NCBI GenBank assembly: GCA_023251775.1
Contig: JAHEYC010000022.1
Span: 1-43,400, forward strand
Length of the DNA: 43,400 nt
Source of the DNA: Sphingobacteriaceae bacterium
Lineage (GTDB): Bacteria > Bacteroidota > Bacteroidia > B-17B0 > Aurantibacillaceae
Reading direction: 5' to 3'
The position numbers were made by a program, and so were the translations under genes. The notes under the pieces were generated by a model. That model was not told where the DNA came from. It saw only the letters and a list, made by a program, of their open reading frames with translations, and made no database searches. Every line of letters starts with the position of its first letter. Position 1 is the stretch's first letter. Below are positions 19,324 to 26,780 of this stretch, one piece after another.

Positions 19324-19354
19324 ACCCCGGGTTAATTCTCGGGGTTTTTTTGTT
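19324..19354 (+). terminator. Rho-independent terminator of the dcw cluster
   Basis: Stem accccggg (19324-19331) pairs with ctcggggt (19338-19345), including one G-T pair, around a ttaatt loop and is followed by a run of seven T starting with the stem's last base. It lies 28 bases after the ftsZ stop. Confidence 0.9.
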
Positions 19355-19376
19355 GGTCGGGACTTAAGTCCCGACC
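19355..19376. repeat. Upstream REP-like perfect palindrome
   Basis: Eleven-base half-site GGTCGGGACTT followed directly by its complement, centred on TTAA at 19364-19367. As single-stranded DNA it would form a hairpin with no need of a spacer apart from the central bases. It directly abuts the terminator T-tract of the ftsZ transcript. Confidence 0.9.
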
Positions 19377-19424
19377 CTCAAAAACACAAGTCCCGACCCT
19401 CAAAAACACAAGTCTCAACCCTAC
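19366..19424. repeat. 22-base tandem repeats extending from the palindrome
   Basis: Units at 19366-19387 and 19388-19409 are identical (AAGTCCCGACC followed by CTCAAAAACAC); a third, partial and diverged unit starts at 19410 with AAGTCTCAACC. Each unit is the right half of the palindrome plus its A-rich tail. The third carries AAGTCTC, the variant found in the downstream palindrome. Confidence 0.9.
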
Positions 19425-19466
19425 CATTTGCTATATTCTGTAGCAAGGGTTTCTCAATAACTAGTT

Positions 19467-19474
19467 TACATTTG
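19467..19474 (+). promoter_or_regulatory. Candidate -7 element TACATTTG for the RAYT gene
   Basis: Perfect TAnnTTTG match, 17 bases before the RAYT ATG. No TTG element is present at the usual -33 distance, so the promoter would be weak or conditional. Confidence 0.4.
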
Positions 19475-19491
19475 TTGTTCATTTTCACTGA

Positions 19492-20040
19492 ATGGGCTTT
19501 CATTATAAAATATACAATAACGATAAACCCTATTTTATCACAACAACTATTGTTGATTGGATAAACGTTTTTGAAGAGGAAAATCAGAAACTTTTCATTG
19601 TGGAATCATTACAATACTGTCAGAAGAACAAAGGACTAAAGATATACGCTTGGTGTTTAATGCCCAACCATTTACACATGATAGCTAAAGCGACAAATGG
19701 ATATAAACTTTCGGATGTCATACGCGATTTTAAACGACATACTTCTAAGAAAATTATTGATCGGATACTTGAAGAACCAAATGATAAAGGCGAATGGATG
19801 CTTAGAGTTTTCAAGAAAACAACGTCACAAGATCCTAAATGTGTTAAATACAAAGTTTGGAAAGATGGGTATCACCCTATCGAATTATCTTCGGCTCCAT
19901 TTACATTTCAAAAACTAAATTATATTCATAACAATCCGGTTAAAGCAATGATAGTGAAAAATTCATGGGAGTATATGTATAGCTCAGCAAGAAATTATGC
20001 AAACATGGAAGGATTACTAGAAATAACAAAGATTGCTTAG
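19492..20040 (+). CDS. REP-associated tyrosine transposase (Y1/HUH family)
   Basis: Single-strand DNA nuclease of the Y1 transposase (IS200-like) family, RAYT branch. The 182-residue protein holds the metal-binding HUH motif in CLMPNHLHMI (H60, H62) and the nucleophilic tyrosine in LNYIHNNPVK (Y144), together with the WKDGYHPIEL segment that is common in RAYTs. Nothing is truncated. RAYTs are thought to cleave and spread REP palindromes rather than move as ordinary insertion sequences, and matching palindromes are found on both sides. No accessory tnpB is present. It has its own possible -7 element and ends just before the downstream palindrome. Confidence 0.92.
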   Translation: MGFHYKIYNNDKPYFITTTIVDWINVFEEENQKLFIVESLQYCQKNKGLKIYAWCLMPNHLHMIAKATNGYKLSDVIRDFKRHTSKKIIDRILEEPNDKGEWMLRVFKKTTSQDPKCVKYKVWKDGYHPIELSSAPFTFQKLNYIHNNPVKAMIVKNSWEYMYSSARNYANMEGLLEITKIA

Positions 20041-20045
20041 TCGCA

Positions 20046-20067
20046 GGTCGAGACTTAAGTCTCGACC
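20046..20067. repeat. Downstream REP-like perfect palindrome
   Basis: Half-site GGTCGAGACTT followed directly by its complement, five bases after the RAYT stop codon. Relative to the upstream copy, one base pair is exchanged on both arms, which keeps the hairpin perfect. Confidence 0.9.
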
Positions 20068-20072
20068 ATCAA

Positions 20073-20100
20073 AAAAGGCGTTCAGTTATGAGCGCCTTTT
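20073..20100. terminator. Bidirectional terminator between RAYT and the BNR protein gene
   Basis: Stem aaaaggcgttca pairs with tgagcgcctttt, with one G-T pair, around a gtta loop. A-tract on the left and T-tract on the right let it work on both strands, serving the converging RAYT and BNR-protein genes. Confidence 0.85.
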
Positions 20101-26754: not shown

Positions 26755-26780
26755 AAAAGGTGCTTAATTAAGCACCTTTT
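26755..26780. terminator. Bidirectional terminator between sugar operon and giant gene
   Basis: A perfect stem, aaaaggtgctt and aagcacctttt, around an aatt loop, with A- and T-tracts on either side. It stands between the converging dehydrogenase and giant surface-protein genes and can serve both. Confidence 0.9.

Follow-up and report, generated by a model that had tools for sequence, protein, structure and literature searches.

RAYTs have been cited as the first example of transposase domestication in bacteria, and the way in which REP sequences spread has been called unresolved (PMC8266576, PMC8049555, PMC6006769). Subclass 2.6 of TnpAY1 comprises Bacteroidetes RAYTs with "atypical" flanking hairpins that lack GT[AG]G (Quentin et al. 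2018, PMC6006769), and the same paper gives for this subclass the motifs NH[LIV]H, WQ and YIH[QN]NP, lists it in a table as Bertels group 5, and states for class 2 that no evidence of mobility was seen. In the E. coli TnpAREP/REP system, the foot is GTAG and stem mismatches form a required bulge (PMC8266576).

Here we analysed a stretch of 43,400 nucleotides from a Sphingobacteriaceae bacterium (GCA_023251775.1, contig JAHEYC010000022.1), the whole of which is called the window below. It contains an HUH/Y1 transposase gene that carries a single-strand hairpin on either side, an arrangement that we are highly confident represents a minimal REPtron-like unit. The window locus is probably a further member of a RAYT subclass already in the literature; the Bacteroidota-specific, non-GTAG REP family that a sequence-only reading of this stretch had suggested is of a type already described as subclass 2.6 (PMC6006769).

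The transposase gene and its two palindromes

The features of the locus, in window coordinates, are as follows.

19345 to 19354, forward strand: outer 5′ foot of the left hairpin, a T-run then GTT (GNT-type; from sequence and motif statistics)
19355 to 19376, no strand: left hairpin, perfect palindrome GGTCGGGACTTAAGTCCCGACC with a 9-bp stem and a TTAA loop, G-C variant
19366 to 19387, forward strand: unit 1 of a 22-nt tandem repeat, the right arm of the left palindrome plus its tail (from sequence)
19388 to 19409, forward strand: unit 2, identical to unit 1 (from sequence)
19410 to 19425, forward strand: unit 3, degenerate, AAGTCTCAACCCTACC (from sequence)
19492 to 20040, forward strand: RAYT / Y1 HUH transposase, 182 amino acids (from profile, alignment and model)
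20046 to 20067, no strand: right hairpin, perfect palindrome GGTCGAGACTTAAGTCTCGACC with a 9-bp stem and a TTAA loop, A-T variant
20068 to 20076, reverse strand: outer foot of the right hairpin, TTTTTTGAT, which reads as GAT directly 5′ of the hairpin (from sequence and motif statistics)
20073 to 20100, forward strand: terminator-like hairpin abutting the unit

The protein matched the RAYT profile NF047646 of NCBIfam with 102.7 bits (cut-off 80) and also Pfam Y1_Tnp. Like IS200/IS605 elements, the unit combines a Y1 HUH transposase with hairpin ends, and in relatives it is duplicated as a whole; unlike them, its ends are most likely inverted copies of one hairpin, and the protein scored only 29.9 bits against the IS200/IS605 profile NF033573 (cut-off 55). 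The HUH pair and the catalytic tyrosine are present, with H60, H62, Y144, N148 and P149 invariant among 55 aligned sequences, and the AlphaFold model based on these sequences had a pLDDT of 92.8. By fold, the best solved-structure match of the model was 4ER8, the E. coli TnpAREP (a group 2 RAYT) bound to a REP hairpin (E 4.7e-8, TM 0.66/0.72), which was also the best match by profile in an alignment search (8.2e-8), while a single-sequence search of the PDB returned no match. In its own genome, an assembly of 144 contigs that is 98.5% complete, the RAYT is single copy, and three weaker Y1 genes are also present.

The locus resembles subclass 2.6 in coming from Bacteroidetes, in a protein length of about 180 residues with NHLH and YIHNNP, in flanking hairpins that lack GT[AG]G, and, through its relatives, in hairpin copies elsewhere in genomes, and it differs in that W123 is followed by K (WK) instead of the Q of the published motif (PMC6006769).

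Both 22-nt palindromes reported to bracket the transposase are perfect and lie exactly at the positions given by the sequence-only reading, and, again as it had described, they differ by one compensated pair, G-C versus A-T, at positions 6 and 17 only. Folded as single-stranded DNA, each forms a 9-bp stem with a TTAA loop. Twenty shuffles of the window yielded seven perfect 18-nt palindromes in total, from which the chance expectation of a perfect 22-mer is ~0.02 per window, and two related perfect 22-mers 690 nt apart essentially never arise by chance. A third perfect 22-nt palindrome, AAGGTGCTTAATTAAGCACCTT at 26757-26778 of the window, is unrelated to these two.

The TTAA, earlier taken for a half-site, is the loop and is not conserved. 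When the loop was left free at up to 12 nt, the core palindrome was found also three times in the genome G027, where two of the three sites bracket a RAYT of 61% identity and have the loop GGAT, indicating that the stem GGTCGGGAC is shared with this relative and the loop is not. Two further relatives in G057 (63-64%) have imperfect hairpins starting GGTCGG.

A TCAAAAA tail had also been described as common to both palindromes; it is present, but in part it is the A-run of the terminator-like hairpin at 20073-20100. A mirror image of this feature flanks the left palindrome on its opposite side (TTTTTTTGTT), so the arrangement is explained no less well if the hairpins are inverted. The tail of the left palindrome may instead be direct, but inversion agrees with the pattern in the family, and the hairpins are most likely in inverted orientation. 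The feet themselves, GTT and GAT, are unlike GTAG, and neither provides a 5′ GT[AG]G. The REPINs of Pseudomonas are of the GTAG type.

Paired hairpins, their feet and strand polarity across the family

RAYT matches were found in 40 of the 87 genomes of the order at E 0.001 and in 66 of 392 genomes of the phylum at E 1e-30. From order and phylum genomes and 11 named-genome loci we assembled a set of 142 RAYT rows that includes the window. Rows had to match by tblastn at E 1e-10 and to span at least about 120 residues; of the 144 collected originally, two were removed as duplicates, and 13 of the 144 had an internal stop. Palindromes were sought within 400 nt on either side of each RAYT. A length filter dropped the window locus from the matched-pair, foot, wobble and Mantel analyses, and it was supplied to the compensation analysis. 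Matching hairpins on both sides were present at 103 of the 142 loci, compared with 13 of 421 in a cross-locus control pairing the upstream side of one locus with the downstream side of another; 70 of these pairs were inverted, 33 matched best as direct, and no matched pair was found at the remaining 39 loci.

Among 54 inverted representatives with less than 80% protein identity, giving 108 ends, G-N-T lay within 0-2 nt of the foot on the outer side at 60 ends and on the inner side at 13 (p 5e-12), and was absent from 48 outer feet. Its commonest forms were GCT and GTT, and a distant branch (about 30-35% identity) had GCC instead. Non-Watson-Crick stem pairs, read along the outer-5′ strand, comprised 47 G.T, 6 A.C, 15 T.T and 6 others, and the excess of G.T over A.C makes the foot strand the better-folded strand, which suggests that processing probably acts on the outer-5′ strand. 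The window stems are perfect and contain no G.T, so this polarity is not readable at the window locus. Hairpin sequences varied widely between clades, tracking the protein, with a Mantel r of 0.549 between hairpin and RAYT protein distances that none of 2000 permutations reached (54 representatives).

The same data bear on the idea that the palindromes serve not as transposase substrates but as operators in double-stranded DNA or as transcription terminators. Such sites would account for the perfect dyads and for the terminator-like stem-loops that adjoin both palindromes, the left one, at -174 to -140 relative to the RAYT start, following an ftsZ-like ORF and having as its tail the T-run of the left foot. 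However, on the inward strand the T-runs lie 5′ of the hairpin, whereas a terminator has them 3′; in relatives, the loop is mostly non-palindromic and the G.T wobbles keep one polarity (47:6), which is unexpected for a double-strand operator; and the hairpin sequence follows the RAYT. Based on the side of the T-run, the wobble polarity and the hairpin-RAYT correlation, we rejected both the terminator and the operator readings as highly improbable.

For the REPtron-like unit, the mechanism is likely to be that of TnpAREP and IS200/IS605 TnpA, which would act on single-stranded DNA. On the inward-running strand, a GNT foot (GTT on the left, GAT on the right) immediately precedes the hairpin, whose 9-bp stem carries a 4-nt loop. 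Where this putative substrate strand is exposed as single-stranded DNA, as may happen on the lagging-strand template, the folded hairpin would be bound by the enzyme, the foot would place the cut, and the tyrosine would cleave just outside the hairpin, with the intervening DNA being moved or joined. By analogy with these enzymes, we infer such cleavage, this choice of strand and activity of the window copy.

Several observations count against the REPtron-like reading, namely the single-copy window unit, a palindrome without genomic repeats, the unpaired loci (39/142) and direct pairs (33/103), the feet without GNT (48/108), and the K after W123 where the published motif has Q. Compared with E. 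coli TnpAREP/REP, the best match both structurally and by profile, the family shares a 5′ foot with a hairpin, inverted pairs and conserved non-Watson-Crick stem pairs, but it has a GNT foot, mostly G.T wobbles where E. coli has its bulge, and few copies.

Compensated stem changes and their origin

For each representative, a counterpart hairpin was located by ungapped similarity alone, with pairing not required, and 71 of 114 representatives gave one. This procedure replaced a first pairing analysis (35 compensated changes, 1 unpaired double change), which required well-paired hairpins and hence selects for pairing, and from which the length filter had also dropped the window locus. From downstream to upstream, 619 stem pairs were unchanged, 25 were compensated, 2 were double-changed and unpaired, 10 had a one-sided G.T and 32 were broken; in the reverse direction, the same classes of change counted 25 compensated, 2 unpaired, 15 G.T and 26 broken. 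Judged from these alignments, the single paired change of the window is one case of a family-wide pattern.

The sequence-only reading had offered two origins for that change, selection for the hairpin or template-directed copying of one arm. Selection is supported by the 25:2 ratio of compensated to unpaired double changes and by the way in which the hairpin tracks RAYT relatedness. Under the other origin, the paired change would reflect template-directed correction of one arm (palindrome correction) instead of two selected substitutions. Copying does occur near the left palindrome, as seen in the tandem half-units at 19366-19425, which the sequence-only reading had overlooked: the left arm is the C variant of the two identical units, whereas in the degenerate third the T variant is retained, as in the distant right palindrome. 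Compensated double changes are also frequent, at 25 of 69 changed pairs. However, templated copying should retain the one-sided spectrum of changes, whereas the compensated changes comprised 20 transitions and 5 transversions against 21:21 among one-sided changes (Fisher p 0.013), as expected for steps via G.T, and one-sided states were themselves seen (32 broken, 10 wobble). Arm copying is thus disfavoured as the source of the paired change, and we consider it unlikely; in this small sample, the spectrum favours steps through G.T as the probable explanation over arm copying. If the enzyme reads the stem largely as a fold and not as a sequence, its pairs could drift by paired changes, mostly transitions via G.T, and drift through a G.T intermediate would explain the G-C/A-T difference between the two window hairpins.

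Copies of the hairpins and of the whole unit

A dispersed REP family in the own genome had been proposed, and this idea fell with the finding that the palindrome has no further copy there, either at up to three mismatches or with a variable loop. With one mismatch allowed, the core palindrome was found in 1 of the 87 genomes of the order, namely its own. Relatives do carry dispersed copies of their own hairpin types. The expectation that the hairpin appears only in genomes with the RAYT was followed for another hairpin type through the pattern CGGATTNNNAATCCG, which characterises one clade of hairpins, in 80 of the 87 genomes. It averaged 2.52 per genome in the 25 genomes with a close RAYT versus 0.58 in the 55 without (p 0.0003), and its reversed-pattern control occurred 6 times in all 87 genomes; it is thus commoner in RAYT-positive genomes, but it was present in 17 of the 55 RAYT-negative genomes too and is not confined to the former. 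Some solo sites are inverted pairs ~50-60 nt apart (L156, L157), and in several genomes of its genus the L024 unit's 28-nt ends are also present by themselves. The REPINs of Pseudomonas resemble the window unit in being inverted hairpin pairs and differ from it in their high copy number and in having no gene inside (PMC3116915).

In relatives, whole units were found in near-identical copies. Two copies on different contigs of G020 (L024 and L084, one of them with an internal stop) were 94.0% identical over 683 columns, with homology spanning from CCGCT-hairpin to hairpin-AGCGGG and then stopping, and two L112 copies in G468 were 95.2% identical over 660 columns, stopping likewise, in sequence ending GGGGG. 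In both pairs, homology ended 5-9 nt outside the hairpin feet, and nothing significant was found in the next 300 nt on either side. Between two genera, the units L044 (Algibacter lectus) and L045 (Cellulophaga baltica) were 93.9% identical over 725 nt in different surroundings, their right flanks having a 24-nt stretch in common (E 9e-4) some 190-270 nt out. An older pair in G300 (L120/L126) was 74.7% identical. L123/L143 and L039/L039_2 are near-identical, but their ends were not both verifiable, and they were not counted as bounded copies. These comparisons suggest that in relatives the gene has travelled jointly with its hairpins, forming a single short mobile unit. The unit in the window is present only once in its genome and shows no sign of recent movement.

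A comparison of the L142 region with G140, G124 and G186 revealed no clean empty site. G140 kept the left end and had other DNA where the gene would be, and the sister species G124 and G186 had only a left-end piece with the hairpin, with a differing left flank; the region was rejected as an empty site, since the remnants look like gene loss leaving a hairpin behind.

The near-identical units have to be weighed against the published view of RAYTs as vertically inherited genes, present in single copy, that "do not copy themselves" (PMC8049555). A family of domesticated RAYTs, vertically inherited or laterally acquired, might copy only its hairpins, and near-identical units might then stem from recombination between repeated hairpins or from larger duplications. 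Consistent with this, a protein identity of at least 85% was seen in 4 of 48 intragenomic pairs and in only 4 of the 28 genomes with several RAYTs. The sharp bounds of the L024/L084 and L112 copies, with no meaningful similarity 300 nt beyond, and the L044/L045 match across two genera argue against it, and we regard both versions of this account as doubtful.

Instead, we lean towards seeing the Bacteroidota RAYTs of the window's family not as domesticated single-copy genes but as transposases that mobilise a minimal single-strand element of roughly 660-720 bp, bounded on either side by inverted copies of a single GNT-foot hairpin. If so, they would form a still-existing link between IS200/IS605 insertion sequences and REPtrons, solo hairpins would be what is left when such elements decay, and a RAYT branch in which gene and hairpins still move together would supply the missing mobile state. 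Such a branch would also offer a small system for foot-guided cleavage with a non-GTAG foot, the rules of its hairpin (GNT foot, ~9-11 bp stem, G.T on the foot strand, free stem sequence) being testable with oligonucleotides. For the subclass, the comparative sequence data add a foot motif, a polarity of the strands, compensation throughout the family and, in relatives, evidence that whole units have moved; this last differs from the account in PMC6006769, where class 2 is said to show no evidence of mobility. In the main text of the open-licence papers searched, neither a GNT foot nor moved subclass 2.6 units were described.

Among plasmid records, 5 of 72,556 carried a RAYT relative, as did 1 of 50,697 phage records. 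RAYTs on plasmids are said not to have been observed; three Bernardetia plasmids (H1, H3, H5) carry relatives of the window RAYT. The flanks of L024, L044, L045 and L112 resemble, by eye, cassettes of polymorphic-toxin, immunity or RHS genes, and such regions may be a hot spot for insertion. At L007 (G027:C146), a 107-nt copy (96%) of the RAYT 3′ end and the following hairpin lies upstream between two hairpins, and it looks like an internally deleted unit beside a full one.

The own genome also contains a second kind of Y1 gene (G000:C131, L185 1252-2072; gene at L185 1462-1923), which matched the IS200/IS605 profile with 65.2 bits and shows, by eye, Y---Q--HH, the published signature of subclass 1.2, which is described as being without REP (PMC6006769). 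This gene has two GGCTCCNNNGGAGCC hairpins on each side, and of the 8 GGCTCCNNNGGAGCC sites in the own genome, two form an inverted pair on C137, separated by 78 nt; the reversed-pattern control had no hit in this genome. A related Y1 gene in G040:C25 has the same GGCTCC hairpin on both sides (L200 557-571 and 1240-1254), within a direct repeat whose copies lie 683 nt apart.
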